A stretch of DNA of 64,000 bases from Erythrobacter sp. F6033 (lineage in GTDB: Bacteria > Pseudomonadota > Alphaproteobacteria > Sphingomonadales > Sphingomonadaceae), in the NCBI RefSeq assembly GCF_023016005.1, contig NZ_JALKAZ010000002.1, positions 310,001-374,000 of the forward strand, written 5' to 3'. Shown in pieces: positions 45,739 through 57,865 of this stretch. Positions within the stretch are counted from its first letter, which is position 1; each line of letters opens with the position of its first letter. Below the pieces are notes generated by a model, which saw only the letters and a list, made by a program, of their open reading frames with translations, was not told where the DNA came from and did no database searches. Made by a program: the position numbers and the translations under genes.

Positions 45739-46337
45739 GCTGGCAAGACACCACGTTCACGCAGCGCGCCAAGGACCGGAAGCAAAGGCATGCCGAGCAC
45801 CGTAAATTGATCACCTGTGATCGATTCAAACAACTGAACACCGATCGCCTCGATCCGAAACACTCCGACTGTGTAGCTTACCTCGGGCCATTCTTGTTCA
45901 AGGTAGTATTCGATGAATTCCTCCGAAAGGTCCCGAACGGTTAGGCTGGCAAGATCGGTGTGGCTCCATTCGCATGTGTCGTCGCGGACCAATGCAGCGG
46001 CGCTGTGCAACTCGATCACCTTGCCGGAAAAGAAGCGGAGATGCTCGGCAGCGTTTTCGCGCGAGGTGGGCTTATCGAAACGCTGACCACCAGCGACAAC
46101 GAGCGAGTCGCTTCCAAGAACCAATGCGCCGGGGTTGGACGGGGCGAGGGCGGCCGCCTTTGCCACGGCCAGAGCTTCGGCGATTTCAGCAGGCGCCGCG
46201 CCAGAGAGCTCCGCTTCGATAGCGCGCTCGTCAACGTCAGCAGGAATTGCCTCATAATGCACACCCGCAGCATCAAGCATGGCGCGGCGAGAGGCCGATT
46301 TTGACGCAAGGATCAGGGAGGGGCGGGCGTCACTCAT
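45735..46337 (-). CDS. maf: Maf-family nucleoside-triphosphate pyrophosphatase
   Basis: 200 residues. LILASKSASRRAMLDAAGV is the Maf start motif with the conserved SxSxRR; LVLGSDSLVV follows, and SVTVRDLS-type region and YCxxEQ-like YYLEQEWPE segment near the middle. Hydrolyses non-canonical nucleotides and can delay division. Overlaps ppsR and aroE by 4 bp each. Confidence 0.94.
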   Translation of the reverse strand: MSDARPSLILASKSASRRAMLDAAGVHYEAIPADVDERAIEAELSGAAPAEIAEALAVAKAAALAPSNPGALVLGSDSLVVAGGQRFDKPTSRENAAEHLRFFSGKVIELHSAAALVRDDTCEWSHTDLASLTVRDLSEEFIEYYLEQEWPEVSYTVGVFRIEAIGVQLFESITGDQFTVLGMPLLPVLGALRERGVLPA

Positions 46338-47179
46338 ATCGGTTTCGACACTCCATCGACTTGCCCGTCTTTGCGTTTGCGTTCTTGCACAAGACGGATG
46401 ATCGCCGCTGCGCTTTCCTCGATAGACCGGCGGGTCACATCGATTACTGGCCAGCCATTGTCCGCAAACATGCGGCGCGCGAATTGCAGCTCGGCTTTGA
46501 CCCGTTCGTCATCCACATAGGATGTTTCGGTTCCTTCATTGAGCGATAATAGCCGGTTGCGGCGGATCTGGACGAGCCGTTCGGACGCGGTGGTCAGACC
46601 AACCACAAGCGGGTGCCGCAATTGAAACAGCGATTCAGGTGGCGGACTTTCAACAACCAGAGGAATGTTCGCGGTTTTATACCCGCGATTGGCGAGATAA
46701 ATGCTCGTCGGTGTTTTCGAACTGCGCGAAACGCCTGCGAGGACAATGTCTGCCTCTTCCCAATTCTCATGCCCAATGCCGTCATCATGCGCGATGGTGA
46801 ATTGGATCGCGTCCACCCGCTTAAAGTAATCGTCATCCATCAGGTGTTGACGGCCCGGGCGACCATGCGCCTCTTGCCCCAGTTGTGATTCAAGCGCGGC
46901 CGTAACCTGATCAAGCACGGGGACCGCAGGCAGGCCAAGGTGACGGCAATGCTCTTCCAGCCGGTCTCTGGTGTCCGGGTTCACCAGCGTAAACAGCACC
47001 AAACCGGGGTTGTCGGCAAGATCAGGCACAATCCGATCAAGGTGCTGACGCGAACGTACCATCGGCCAGAAATGACGATTGACCTCGGGGTCATCAAATT
47101 GCGCGAGCGCAGCTTTGGCGATCATCTCCAGCGTTTCACCAGTGGAATCTGAGACAAGGTGCAGGTTCAGTCGGTTCAT
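46334..47179 (-). CDS. ppsR: PEP-synthase/PPDK regulatory kinase-phosphorylase (DUF299)
   Basis: 281 residues from ATG 47179; upstream in-frame codons would run through the origin gap. LHLVSDSTGETLEMIAKAALAQF and the P-loop GVSRSSKTPTSIYLANRG are DUF299 hallmarks. Known members phosphorylate and reactivate PEP synthase or pyruvate phosphate dikinase. In other alphaproteobacteria this gene lies next to oriC, opposite hemE, as here. Confidence 0.95.
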   Translation of the reverse strand: MNRLNLHLVSDSTGETLEMIAKAALAQFDDPEVNRHFWPMVRSRQHLDRIVPDLADNPGLVLFTLVNPDTRDRLEEHCRHLGLPAVPVLDQVTAALESQLGQEAHGRPGRQHLMDDDYFKRVDAIQFTIAHDDGIGHENWEEADIVLAGVSRSSKTPTSIYLANRGYKTANIPLVVESPPPESLFQLRHPLVVGLTTASERLVQIRRNRLLSLNEGTETSYVDDERVKAELQFARRMFADNGWPVIDVTRRSIEESAAAIIRLVQERKRKDGQVDGVSKPI

Positions 47180-47516
47180 AAGGTTATCGCTGGCTGCTAT
47201 CGGAGGTTGGTGAGCTTGTGGATATACAGGGGCATAAACCACGGCAAAGAACAGTCGACAAGCATGGGAGGAAATTTCATCCTCGAAACCGCGAAGTTGT
47301 GAGGGGTGCTTGTCGACACAAGCCAGCGTTTTTAAACAGGGTGGGGACAGCGTGGATAGTTTCCGCTTGACCACACAAAAGTGTAGAGTCGCATGGACAC
47401 TTTGGGGTGTTCACAGCGGGAGAAATCGGGCAGTTGCTGGTAATTCCCGCTTTCCACAGGGCCAACACCTACTCCATCCTTTTATATAAAAATTATATTA
47501 GATTAGAGGAACTCCA
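47180..47516. other. Candidate chromosomal replication origin (oriC)
   Basis: A 337-bp gene-free gap between ppsR (minus) and hemE (plus), the location of Caulobacter Cori and related origins. DnaA-box-like 9-mers are seen at 47217 (TGTGGATAT, 8 of 9), 47351 (CGTGGATAG, 7 of 9), 47407 (GTGTTCACA, 7 of 9) and 47450 (CTTTCCACA, 7 of 9). A perfect 11-bp inverted repeat flanks the middle, and an AT-rich stretch (47481-47502, TTTATATAAAAATTATATTA) lies at the right end. Genes diverge on both sides. No boxes were verified experimentally. Confidence 0.7.
47254..47317. repeat. 11-bp inverted repeat inside the candidate origin
   Basis: GTCGACAAGCA (47254-47264) and TGCTTGTCGAC (47307-47317) are exact inverted copies with a 42-nt spacer. 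The arms contain the GTCGAC palindrome. They do not match the DnaA box or the CtrA motif and could be a protein-binding pair. Confidence 0.65.
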
Positions 47517-48536
47517 ATGCCGGGCCCACTGCTCGAAACTCTCAAAGGTTCGAAACAAGAAATAGCGCCAGTTTGGCTCATGCGCCAGGCCGGTCGGTAC
47601 CTTCCTGAATATCGTGAATTACGGGCAGAGAAGGGCGGCTTTTTAGAGCTGGTCTATGACAGTGAAGCTGCCGCCGAAGTTACCGTGCAACCTATCCGCC
47701 GCTTTGGGTTTGACGGCGCAATTCTGTTTTCCGATATTCTAATCGTACCGCACGCGATGGGGCAGGGTCTGGAATTTCTCGCAGGGGAGGGACCGCATCT
47801 GAGCCCAACATTGCGCGATGTTGATCTGGCTGATTTCACCCAAGCGAAAGAGCGTTTCGATCCGGTTTATGAGACGGTTCGCCGAACCCGCCAGCAGATC
47901 TCTGATTCCGTCACGATGTTGGGCTTTGCGGGGTCTCCCTGGACAGTTGCGACGTATATGATCGCGGGACAAGGTTCCAAGAACCAGGAGCCAGCGCGAT
48001 TGATGGCGTATCGTGACCCTGCTCGTATGCAGGCGATCTGTGATGCAATCATTGAAATCTCTGTCGAGTATCTACGCGGACAGATTGATGCGGGAGCGGA
48101 AGCCATCCAGCTGTTTGATAGTTGGGCTGGCAGTCTTGCTCCGGACGAGTTTGAACGCTGGGTCATTGCACCCAATGCGAAAATCACAGCAGAGCTTAAA
48201 AGTTCGCATCCCGGCACGCCGATAATTGGCTTTCCGAAGGGTGCAGGGGCCAAATTGCCCGCATATGCGCGCGAAACCGGTGTTGATGCGATTGGCCTTG
48301 ATGAAACGCTCGATCCGGCCTGGGCCCATGCCAGCTTGCCCGAGGGAATGCCTGTTCAAGGCAATTTTGATCCGCTGCTGCTCGAAGCTGGAGGTCCTGA
48401 GATAAAGAAACGGGTTCATACGATTATTGAGGCATTTGAAGATCGGCCGCACATCTTCAATCTTGGTCATGGAATTGGCCAGTTCACGCCGATTGAGCAC
48501 GTTGAAGAGTTGCTAGAAGCCGTTCGCGGCAGTTAA
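47517..48536 (+). CDS. hemE: Uroporphyrinogen decarboxylase
   Basis: 339 residues. PVWLMRQAGRYLPEYRELR, FSDILIVPHAMG, GFAGSPWTVATYMIAGQ and FDSWAGSLAP are HemE landmarks. Converts uroporphyrinogen III to coproporphyrinogen III in haem synthesis. AGAGGAA precedes the ATG at 47517. Adjacent to the candidate origin and to hemJ. Confidence 0.98.
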   Translation: MPGPLLETLKGSKQEIAPVWLMRQAGRYLPEYRELRAEKGGFLELVYDSEAAAEVTVQPIRRFGFDGAILFSDILIVPHAMGQGLEFLAGEGPHLSPTLRDVDLADFTQAKERFDPVYETVRRTRQQISDSVTMLGFAGSPWTVATYMIAGQGSKNQEPARLMAYRDPARMQAICDAIIEISVEYLRGQIDAGAEAIQLFDSWAGSLAPDEFERWVIAPNAKITAELKSSHPGTPIIGFPKGAGAKLPAYARETGVDAIGLDETLDPAWAHASLPEGMPVQGNFDPLLLEAGGPEIKKRVHTIIEAFEDRPHIFNLGHGIGQFTPIEHVEELLEAVRGS

Positions 48537-50949: not shown

Positions 50950-51342
50950 ATGCTAAGCCAATATCTCTACATCAGCACTGCGCCGAGCCTTTCTCGCGAA
51001 GAAGTTGATTCGATTCTCGCCAGCAGCGCGCGCAACAATCCTGCGCGCGGTGTAACTGGGCTTCTGCTCTACAATGGCCGCAATTTTCTGCAGTTGCTTG
51101 AAGGCGGTGAGGCTGAACTTGTCGATCTGATGGTTCGGATCACGCATGATCCCCGTCACACTGGCGTTTCTATGCTTGAGCACCGAAAAGTCGAACAGCG
51201 TGCATGTTCTGATTGGGCGATGAAGCGCATAATGATCTCTGAAAGTGTCGAGAACCGTCGTGAGGCGCTCGATACAGACTTGCCGGAGAATTTGGATACC
51301 CAGATCCGCAAGATCATCATGAATTTTGCGGTTCTGAACTAG
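50950..51342 (+). CDS. BLUF-domain blue-light photoreceptor
   Basis: 130 residues. The flavin pocket is complete: Tyr7 in QYLYIS, Asn30 in NNPARGVTG, Gln48 in FLQLLEGG, and the WxM motif with Trp89 and Met91 in DWAMKR. Short-BLUF proteins have no output domain and act by protein contact. It binds FAD and changes state on blue light; partner unknown. No enzyme domain is fused. Confidence 0.93.
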   Translation: MLSQYLYISTAPSLSREEVDSILASSARNNPARGVTGLLLYNGRNFLQLLEGGEAELVDLMVRITHDPRHTGVSMLEHRKVEQRACSDWAMKRIMISESVENRREALDTDLPENLDTQIRKIIMNFAVLN

Positions 51343-53481: not shown

Positions 53482-53497
53482 TGTTTCACGTGAAACA
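53482..53497. other. parS centromere site 1 (intergenic)
   Basis: TGTTTCACGTGAAACA, a perfect 16-bp palindrome identical to the bacterial parS consensus, in the 97-bp gap between mnmE and mnmG. It is the expected ParB binding site, about 6 kb from the candidate origin. The gap has no other feature I can support. Confidence 0.92.
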
Positions 53498-55425: not shown

Positions 55426-56060
55426 GCCAAGACCGCCTGATCGAAACCGAAGTACAAGCTCGCGCATACGTAAAAAGTATGGTGGGAGAAGCCGCGTTCG
55501 AGCGCGTCGAAAGACTTACGGCGTTGTTGCTGGCTGAAAATCAGCGTCAGAACCTTATCAGCAAGGCTTCTGAATCGCAGATCTGGCAGCGCCACATGGC
55601 TGATAGCGCGCAGTTGCTAGAGCATGTTCCACGTGAAACACTCAATGCAACCTCTGATCCATGGTTGGACCTGGGCACAGGGGCGGGTCCACCAGGCTTG
55701 GTAATCGCGGCACTGCTTCCTGACTTGCCTGTTTGTCTTGTTGAGTCCCGCGGGCGGAGGGTCGAGTTTCTTCAGAGTTGTGTGGATGAACTTGGATTAT
55801 CGCAATGCCGGGTGATTGGTGACCGATTGGAGCGAATCGAACCATTCCCGGTAAATGTCATTTCGGCACGTGCTTTTGCTCCTTTAGATAAGCTCCTTCG
55901 GTTATCCGCACCCTTCTCCACAGGGGCTACACGCTACCTCTTGCCGAAAGGGCGGTCTGCGGCGCACGAATTGAAACAACAGAAAAAACCGATTCGAGCG
56001 ATGTTTCACGTGGAACAATCGTTGACCGATCGCGAAGCAGGCATCATCGTAAGCACCTGA
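55422..56060 (+). CDS. rsmG: 16S rRNA (guanine527-N7)-methyltransferase RsmG
   Basis: 212 residues from GTG 55422, which overlaps mnmG by 4 bp. [26 protein letters not shown] and [19 protein letters not shown] give the SAM-binding site. Methylates 16S rRNA. Two parS sites lie inside the coding sequence, encoding HVPRETL and MFHVEQ. Confidence 0.96.
55625..55640. other. parS centromere site 2 (inside rsmG)
   Basis: TGTTCCACGTGAAACA, matching the parS consensus TGTTNCACGTGAAACA. It lies in frame within rsmG, where it encodes part of HVPRET, so the gene tolerates the site. Confidence 0.88.
56002..56017. other. parS centromere site 3 (3' end of rsmG)
   Basis: TGTTTCACGTGGAACA, one mismatch from the palindromic consensus. 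It lies near the 3' end of rsmG, encoding MFHVEQ, and about 100 bp before parA. Confidence 0.85.
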
Positions 56061-56114
56061 ACGACGCGATTTGTGCAAATGGGCACTGAAATCGGCCCAA
56101 AAGGTGAGAAAACC

Positions 56115-56891
56115 ATGCTGACAATTGCCATTGCGAACCAAAAAGGCGGTGTTGGAAAGACGACGACTGCTATCAATATGGCGACAGCAATGGCTGCGAC
56201 CGGCTGGCGCACACTCTTGATTGATCTTGATCCCCAAGGGAATGCCTCGACGGGAATGGGTGTGGATTCCGCATCGCGCGACCTATCGAGCTATGACCTA
56301 TTGGTGGATGAAATTCCCCTCATCGACGCTACTGTCACAACGAGTATTCCGGGTCTGGATATTGTGCCGGCAACTCAGGATCTAAGCGGGGCTGAGATCG
56401 AGCTTGTATCAGTCGAAGAGCGCACCGCACGTTTACGCAATGCACTCGATAAGCATTCAGGGCACGACGTGTGCTTTATCGATTGCCCGCCTTCGCTTGG
56501 GTTGCTCACACTAAACGCACTTTGTGCAGCCGATACGCTGTTGGTGCCGTTGCAATGCGAGTTTTTCGCACTCGAAGGGCTCAGTCAGTTGCTTCAAACC
56601 ATTGAACAGGTTCAACAACGATTTAATCCGTCGCTCGATATTATTGGCGTCGCACTTACCATGTATGACCGCCGCAACCGTTTGACGGACCAGGTTTCCG
56701 ATGATGTACGGGAATGTTTGGGAGATTTGGTGTTTGATACGGTAATTCCGCGCAATGTGCGGCTTTCGGAAGCGCCAAGTCATGGTTTACCCGCGCTTGT
56801 TTATGATCATTCCTGCACCGGTAGCCGCGCCTATATTGCCTTGGCGCGCGAGCTGATTGGTCGTTTCCCACCTGAAAGGAAAGCCGCATGA
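56115..56891 (+). CDS. parA: Chromosome partition ATPase ParA
   Basis: 258 residues from ATG 56115, with AAGGTGAG upstream. Deviant Walker A KGGVGKTT at residues 10-17 (AIANQKGGVGKTTTAINMA), LIDLDPQGNASTG, and FIDCPPSLGLLTLNAL are ParA/Soj hallmarks. Dynamically moves the ParB-parS complex during segregation. Overlaps parB by 4 bp. Confidence 0.98.
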   Translation: MLTIAIANQKGGVGKTTTAINMATAMAATGWRTLLIDLDPQGNASTGMGVDSASRDLSSYDLLVDEIPLIDATVTTSIPGLDIVPATQDLSGAEIELVSVEERTARLRNALDKHSGHDVCFIDCPPSLGLLTLNALCAADTLLVPLQCEFFALEGLSQLLQTIEQVQQRFNPSLDIIGVALTMYDRRNRLTDQVSDDVRECLGDLVFDTVIPRNVRLSEAPSHGLPALVYDHSCTGSRAYIALARELIGRFPPERKAA

Positions 56892-57865
56892 GCAAGAGCA
56901 GCGATCCCATTCGTTTTTCAGTGCCGCAGCGCAGCCCGGCAGATAAAAAGAAGAAGCTCGGCAAAGGGTTGGGCGCCCTTCTGGGGGAAACGAAGCGAGA
57001 GGAACCTCTCGTTCGTGATGAAGTGACAGGTGAGCCCGTTTTGTCGAAGGCACCTAGTGATTCTTCGCTTCAGTCGCTCTCAGTTGCATCTATCAAACCC
57101 CTGCCGGGGAACCCTCGTAAGCATTTTGATCAGGATGCTCTGGAGGAACTGGCCGCTTCGATTGCAAAGCGCGGCGTAATCCAGCCTATTATCGTGCGGC
57201 CGCTTTCGTCGGGCAAATATGAACTTGTCGCGGGTGAGCGTCGTTGGCGGGCAGCGCAAAAGGCGCGGCTGCACAATATTCCTGCGCTCGTTAGAGATTT
57301 GGATAATCGCGAGGTTATGGCGCTTGCGCTGATTGAAAACCTACAGCGCGAGGATTTAAATCCTGTTGAAGAAGCGCGGGCTTATAAAAGACTTGCAGAT
57401 CAAGAGGGCATGACTCAGGCGGAAATCGCCAGGATGGTCGAGAAATCGCGCAGCCATGTCGCGAATACTCAGCGGCTGCTTAATCTCCCCGAGAAAGTCT
57501 TAGATCTCGTGGAGGGCGGAAAACTCTCCATGGGTCATGCTCGGGCGCTGATTGGACAGGACGACGCAGCAAACCTCGCTGATAAAGCGGTGAACGACAA
57601 TCTTTCTGTCCGTGAAATCGAGAAACTCGTCCGAAAGTTGGCAAGGGCTGTCAATCCAAAGCCTGCATCACCCAAATCCTCGCAGGGTGAGCAAGCGGCC
57701 AATGCTGATATAGCGGCCGTCCAAAACCATCTTGAGGAATTCCTTGGATTGCCCGTCAGGATTAAGTCTGATGATGATCCGAGGACTGGCACAGTATCGA
57801 TCCGCTACGCGTCGCTCGATCAACTGGACTTGGTTTGTCAGCGCCTCACCGGCGGTGAATTCTAG
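56888..57865 (+). CDS. parB: Chromosome partition protein ParB
   Basis: 325 residues. N-terminal basic stretch KKKLGKGLGALLGE, the CTPase core with GNPRKHFD, GVIQPIIVRP, ELVAGERRWRAAQKA and LIENLQREDLNPVEEA, then a helix-turn-helix TQAEIARMVEKSRSHVANTQRLLNLP that reads parS, and a C-terminal dimerisation tail. Binds the three parS sites and, by family, PopZ. Confidence 0.98.
   Translation: MSKSSDPIRFSVPQRSPADKKKKLGKGLGALLGETKREEPLVRDEVTGEPVLSKAPSDSSLQSLSVASIKPLPGNPRKHFDQDALEELAASIAKRGVIQPIIVRPLSSGKYELVAGERRWRAAQKARLHNIPALVRDLDNREVMALALIENLQREDLNPVEEARAYKRLADQEGMTQAEIARMVEKSRSHVANTQRLLNLPEKVLDLVEGGKLSMGHARALIGQDDAANLADKAVNDNLSVREIEKLVRKLARAVNPKPASPKSSQGEQAANADIAAVQNHLEEFLGLPVRIKSDDDPRTGTVSIRYASLDQLDLVCQRLTGGEF

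Follow-up and report, generated by a model that had tools for sequence, protein, structure and literature searches.

Whether the gap between the divergent genes ppsR and hemE is the chromosomal replication origin (oriC) was the question raised by this locus, and it had been posed by a sequence-only reading that named the gap as a candidate oriC. The window (the whole stretch of 64,000 nucleotides analysed here) corresponded to C2:310001-374000 in an assembly of 3,043,176 bases with two contigs (C1 and C2). Judged from its sequence, the gap was almost certainly the single chromosomal oriC of this marine Erythrobacter-type alphaproteobacterium: the skew switch, a parS cluster, conservation, DnaA-box density, and the weakest duplex of the window all supported the candidate, and the points against it were the degenerate boxes, a denser box cluster beside dnaA, and a GC-skew minimum lying to the left of the gap (see below).

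The gap had exactly the borders first proposed for it, with ppsR and hemE as its flanks, and both genes were assigned by family match (ppsR to DUF299), which bore out the hemE/DUF299 context of alphaproteobacterial origins invoked at the outset. The claim that genes pointed away from the gap on both sides also held: seven family-assigned genes at 40.6-45.7 kb, a Maf-like gene, and ppsR all pointed left, while hemE, a HemJ-like gene, rho, the gene of a BLUF protein, mnmE, mnmG, rsmG, parA, and parB all pointed right. The left side carried aroE-, coaE-, and dnaQ-like genes besides the Maf-like one. These short gene names were readings of family matches, those for HemJ, Maf, and ParA lying under the curated cut-offs; the position of the ParA-family ATPase gene ahead of parB supported its reading as the chromosomal parA. 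The arrangement was that of hemE-type origins, i.e., a divergent ppsR/DUF299-hemE pair with rho, mnmE, mnmG, parA, and parB on the hemE side. The BLUF protein, a blue-light sensor, was encoded at window positions 50950-51342, near rho and 3.4 kb from the origin. An Rfam search of the window at gathering scores gave no match.

The nearest named relatives were Erythrobacter, and the top ppsR match (99% identical) came from an uncultured Erythrobacter. The ppsR-hemE gap was kept in 77 of 80 loci from named relatives (the remaining three were cut by contig ends) and in 28 of 29 further genus and order loci (the best 30 of 60 matching genomes, with our own left out), the one miss being a truncated locus; the adjacency recurred in 26 of 27 class loci, and both genes were found on 36 of 37 additional genome pieces, the miss being cut by the contig start. 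None of 72,556 plasmid records matched at E 1e-5.

GC skew was sampled in 19 stretches of 20 kb: it was positive in nine C1 stretches (1 to 1.38 Mb), negative in six C1 stretches (1.53-2.40 Mb) and in the three C2 stretches that precede 240 kb; at C2 440 kb it was positive again. The sampled genome had one minimum region, at the gap, and one maximum, near which the values were +0.005 at 1.40 Mb and -0.063 at 1.44 Mb; the two arms from the gap to this maximum measured about 1.55 and 1.49 Mb, assuming a single circle C1-C2. In a continuous 240-kb piece (C2 220-460 kb), the keto-skew minimum fell at 355,869, 1.3 kb left of the gap (which starts at 357,180), and the GC-skew minimum, part of a flat plateau (-1146 there vs. 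-1106 at the gap), fell at 344,524, a distance of 12.7 kb to the left. The skew check that had been proposed for the candidate, run on these samples, placed the gap at the skew minimum. Exact parS sites numbered only three in the 3.04-Mb genome (C2 363,482, 365,625, and 366,002), all 6-9 kb from the gap; eight further parS-like places carried two mismatches, and a backward control pattern gave a similar number (9). No match to a dif-like terminus pattern turned up anywhere in the genome.

Table. Features of the ppsR-hemE gap and its surroundings (window positions; conservation counted over 78 aligned gaps, i.e., the window plus 77 named relatives; functional roles are putative)
Feature	Position	Strand	Basis
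oriC gap, 337 bases	47180..47516		Divergent ppsR-hemE gap, conserved at 312-386 bp across the 77 named relatives
ppsR (DUF299/PF03618), left flank	46334..47179	-	NCBIfam PRK05339, 333 bits, cut-off 225
hemE, right flank	47517..48536	+	TIGR01464, 392 bits, cut-off 303
DnaA box 1, ATATCCACA	47217..47225	-	One mismatch; TGTGGA core: four columns 78/78, two other G 72 and 76
Near-invariant 13-mer GCATAAACCACGG	47232..47244	-	Each column 74-78/78; exact 13-mer in 70/199 family genomes
Conserved GACAAG	47257..47262	-	G in 65/78, five other columns 77-78/78
Degenerate DnaA box TTGTCGACA	47310..47318	+	Two mismatches; outer columns TT, ACA in 74-77/78
W-box-like hexamer TCCCCA	47342..47347	-	TCCCCA in 66/78 gaps, mean 1.18 vs. 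0.19 in shuffles
DnaA box CTATCCACG	47351..47359	-	Two mismatches; GGATA columns 77, 73, 78, 62, 78 of 78
CTTGAC, candidate -35 of hemE or an oriC transcript	47366..47371	+	Columns 62, 78, 65, 78, 78, 69 of 78
GANTC (CcrM-type) site, sole one in gap	47386..47390		G, A, T, C 78/78; middle base T56/G22
DnaA-box-like GTGTTCACA	47407..47415	+	Columns not conserved in relatives
DnaA box CTTTCCACA facing AT-rich stretch	47450..47458	+	TCCACA (47453-47458) 77-78/78 per column
Conserved GC-rich spacer GGGCCAAC	47459..47466	+	73-78/78 per column
Six C-led triplets CAA CAC CTA CTC CAT CCT	47463..47480	+	C-run of 6 in window
AT-rich duplex-unwinding element, putative	47476..47506		87% A+T; least stable 31-mer of window
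parS site 1	53482..53497		Exact palindrome
parS site 2	55625..55640		Exact parS
parS site 3	56002..56017		Exact parS
parA-family ATPase	56073..56891	+	Partition ATPase family matches, under cut-offs
parB	56888..57865	+	TIGR00180, 188 bits, cut-off 58

DnaA boxes were scored against the consensus TTATNCACA at one or two mismatches, with density expressed as a weighted score. The gap contained one 9-mer within one mismatch (47217, minus strand) and none exact, and the entire 64-kb window held 14 such matches, below the shuffle mean of 26. At two mismatches, the gap held 10 matches with a weighted score of 11, which was reached by 0.05% of 17,661 overlapping 337-base intervals drawn from the 64 kb, 19 stretches of 20 kb, and the dnaA locus (the gap's own intervals counted); the boxes were therefore clustered over background, degenerate though they were. 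TCCACA was present in 78/78 gaps (mean 2.03 vs. 0.15 in shuffles), and so was GANTC (mean 3.12 vs. 1.30). The alignment of the 78 gaps displayed invariant columns in box 1, in GANTC, and in the last box plus spacer, with freely varying bases between them. Four of the matches were plausible boxes (47217 and 47351 on the minus strand; 47407 and 47450 on the plus strand), the number also counted by the sequence-only reading, but the columns of the one at 47407 were not conserved. A second group of DnaA-like 9-mers (window 55751-56087, score 10) was located inside rsmG, among the parS sites.

Two further candidates from the gap were rejected: (i) TTGTCGACA as an origin motif, which had 58 genome sites vs. 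11 for its backward control and was enriched without being origin-specific, and (ii) a hairpin at 47412-47452, which had a mean folding z of -1.95 over 78 sequences (mononucleotide shuffles; 54/78 below -1) and was dropped as an RNA, because only two of the seven stem pairs tallied kept their pairing in over 61 of 78 sequences and two others kept it in no more than 17 and 18. Several TTGTCGACA copies formed palindromes TTGTCGACAA, and 38 of the 58 were on the contigs' minus strand.

Could the gap be merely a shared regulatory region, with divergent ppsR and hemE promoters accounting for its conservation and AT-richness? Promoter-like elements were indeed present: the CTTGAC on the hemE side and, on the minus strand, CTTGTC-N17-TTTATG resembled promoters by eye and were conserved, GCATAAACCACGG on the minus strand perhaps being the extended -10 and CTTGTC (the minus strand of the conserved GACAAG) perhaps the -35 of the same candidate ppsR promoter; moreover, the exact 13-mer was located between ppsR and hemE at nine of ten loci inspected, the tenth (L193) having neither gene near. 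Promoters alone nevertheless left the skew switch, the parS cluster, and the DnaA-type boxes in 78/78 gaps unexplained, and a purely regulatory gap was judged very improbable. Promoter and origin may coexist, since in Caulobacter the transcription of hemE reportedly matters for replication (PMC8959179).

An origin at dnaA itself, which a denser set of DnaA-like 9-mers follows, was considered extremely unlikely, because the skew sampled on either side of dnaA (C1 170 and 340 kb) was positive with no switch, and because its box-like sites lay in and beside an inverted repeat (11-bp perfect stem) before the next gene and looked terminator-like. The gene was located on C1 at 228,975-230,333, which puts it about 363 kb away from the gap provided that the contigs join, and the cluster, just past its stop codon, scored 14 vs. 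11 in the gap, the top of all intervals scanned; a stronger cluster near dnaA, named beforehand as a finding that would speak against the candidate, thus existed, but in this terminator-like setting. All six same-genus loci had perfect stems of 9-16 bp after dnaA, with box-like letters in every one except L162, and only 2 of 24 other-family loci had a single box at one mismatch or fewer after dnaA. At two mismatches, the other-family dnaA loci had up to 5 matches in 160 bp vs. 7 at our own locus, and stems of 5-11 bp occurred there too. The inverted repeat with box-like 9-mers in and beside it, just past dnaA, spanned 1381-1500 of locus L002 (C1 about 228.85-228.97 kb).

With the ppsR-hemE gap retained as oriC, its predicted mode of action would be as follows: DnaA would bind four conserved boxes (47217, 47310, 47351, and 47450) together with weak TCCCCA sites; a DnaA oligomer would run from the 47450 box over the GGGCC spacer and melt the AT-rich 47476-47506 just ahead of hemE; forks would then depart both ways, and ParB at the three parS sites would segregate the new origins. 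Through the invariant GANTC, the origin is probably coupled to CcrM methylation and perhaps also to GcrA, which was encoded in the genome. The AT-rich stretch singled out at the start was confirmed as the weakest 31-bp duplex (0 of 63,970 window positions were weaker) and began 17 bp past the end of the 47450 box.

The six C-led triplets that follow the last box are perhaps the remnant of a DnaA-trio-like array. From the box orientation, we take the trio strand in this gap to be the one opposite the hemE coding strand. The published trio rule asks for at least three 3'-NAN-5' trios, mostly 3'-GAT-5', within 16 bp of a box (PMC8287927), and at most two trios followed any of the five boxes in the window. 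Beside the last box, the rule held in 12 and failed in 65 of 77 Erythrobacter-group gaps (one of the 78 had no anchor), the 12/77 falling below the share of about 38% among mononucleotide shuffles, an unfair null that spreads the AT-rich bases. Anywhere in the gap, it held in 19/78 Erythrobacter-group gaps (vs. 11% of shuffles), 10/19 other family members (vs. 14%), and 16/22 other-family gaps (vs. 35%).

The comparison was also applied to 32 two-letter triplet patterns over the last 150 bases of the gaps against dinucleotide shuffles, CNA having been picked by eye beforehand. In the 22 other-family gaps of the order (two near-duplicate pairs included), ACN and CNA, which form one periodic repeat, stood out: CNA had a mean run of 3.05 vs. 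1.45, with runs of at least 4 in 9/22 vs. 0.5% of shuffles and in 1/22 on the other strand. For the class-level set (26 gaps with their last 200 bases; best-matching loci from the 81 of 115 genomes in which ppsR had a match), the mean was 2.65 vs. 1.61, with runs of at least 4 in 3/26 vs. 0.3%; the other strand had no such run. The repeat of order and class relatives was thus 5'-CNA-3' (3'-GNT-5') between the last box and the AT-rich stretch, a looser form than the published trio 3'-GAT-5', examples being five CCA in L278 and five CNA in each of L282, L283, and L285. CNA was at the null in the 78 Erythrobacter-group gaps (1.41 vs. 1.45) and slightly raised in 19 other own-family gaps (1.74 vs. 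1.46); TNT (2.05 vs. 1.56) and CAN (2.08 vs. 1.62) were also raised in the Erythrobacter group, and CAN (2.21 vs. 1.54) was raised in the rest of the family.

The initiator protein was compared with Bacillus DnaA, in which Asn187 touches the middle adenine of a trio, and Arg202 and Glu228 touch the first guanine (PMC10721633). Our DnaA aligned without gaps across this part to chain 8btg, which was taken as that Bacillus protein because residues 183, 187, 190, 193, 202, and 228 agreed, and in 8btg numbering it had Val at 187, Lys at 202, Glu at 228, and Leu-Leu-Tyr at 229-231. Lys202 and Glu228 were found in 69/69 DnaAs, and Asn187 was found in 1/69: residue 187 was V22 and I3 in 25 Erythrobacter-group proteins, and Y13, F9, L1, and H1 in 24 other-family proteins. 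Six neighbouring positions, which belong to the single-strand-gripping (initiator-specific) motif of DnaA, were intact in 24/24 other-family proteins (T225, F229, F230, H231, F233, and N234) and read A, L, L, Y, I, and D in 25/25 Erythrobacter-group proteins; 20 other family members were mostly intermediate, with the Erythrobacter form in G096. Motif and repeat gave a Spearman coefficient of 0.51 over 65 genomes of related groups and -0.03 within 18 other family members; co-variation was therefore rejected as a reading of the 0.51, which reflected group differences, and the motif change would be linked to repeat loss between groups and not within the rest of the family.

A free middle base in the triplet would fit the loss of Asn187. 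It is possible, although we hold it to be rather doubtful, that hemE-type alphaproteobacterial origins grip a relaxed trio, 3'-GNT-5', with a dispensable middle adenine, since nearly all DnaAs examined carry a hydrophobic or aromatic residue in place of Asn187, and that the Erythrobacter group rebuilt both motif and repeat, so that a changed DnaA-to-single-strand contact would open the origin. The relaxed trio was not a forced reading, since other-family and family gaps often obeyed the published rule. What looked unusual in the Erythrobacter group was the opening spot together with the DnaA loop expected to grip it. A literature search joining the DnaA motif term with these genera found no paper. 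Searches on DnaA-trio with Caulobacter returned only the Ori-Finder server; those with Alphaproteobacteria returned Epsilonproteobacteria work only, silent on alphaproteobacterial trios in the excerpts at hand, and the supplementary predictions of PMC8287927 may record the pattern.

A hemE-side origin has already been reported for most Sphingomonadaceae, and its assignment here is correct but ordinary; it gives a firm anchor for Erythrobacter replication studies, for which a search on oriC or replication origin returned genome papers only, with no Erythrobacter origin study among the titles. The unwinding element and the initiator matter more than the origin itself: in Bacillus, DnaA is reported to read the middle adenine of each trio through Asn187, whereas this large group, some of it in culture, has another residue at that position, a repeat that is looser or no higher than background, and a changed motif next to it, so that the generality of the published unwinding mechanism becomes directly testable with purified proteins.

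Among known origins, that of Sphingopyxis lies near hemE, where the origin is predicted for most Sphingomonadaceae, and has conserved boxes along with a putative unwinding element (PMC4741004); that of Novosphingobium PP1Y lies by hemE with three boxes (PMC4059872). Our gap shared with Sphingopyxis granuli TFA and Novosphingobium PP1Y the hemE-side place and several putative DnaA boxes, and with Sphingopyxis also the putative unwinding element and the conserved gene organization (PMC4741004). PP1Y has a dnaA gene close to its origin (PMC4059872), whereas dnaA was far away here; dnaA is described as not conserved near ori in Sphingomonadales (PMC8116508). The Caulobacter crescentus Cori and our gap had in common the hemE side, the six-base weak boxes TCCCCA, and the AT-rich stretch (PMC8959179, PMC4285127). 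The CtrA motif TTAA-N7-TTAA and the G-box TGATCCACA that mark a Caulobacter-type Cori in the narrow sense were each found in 0/78 gaps, and in none of the shuffles either, which makes this an absence and not a depletion. The conserved gene frame that Brassinga (2001) reportedly described at the Caulobacter Cori was shared as well. Compared to the basal unwinding system (PMC8287927, PMC10721633), the hemE-type gaps shared a box facing an AT-rich stretch, a GC-rich spacer, and, in order and class relatives, triplets, but they differed in that the trio rule failed after every box of the window and beside the last box in most Erythrobacter-group gaps, and that the CNA repeat of the relatives (3'-GNT-5') had a free middle base, although most other-family gaps also obeyed the rule somewhere.
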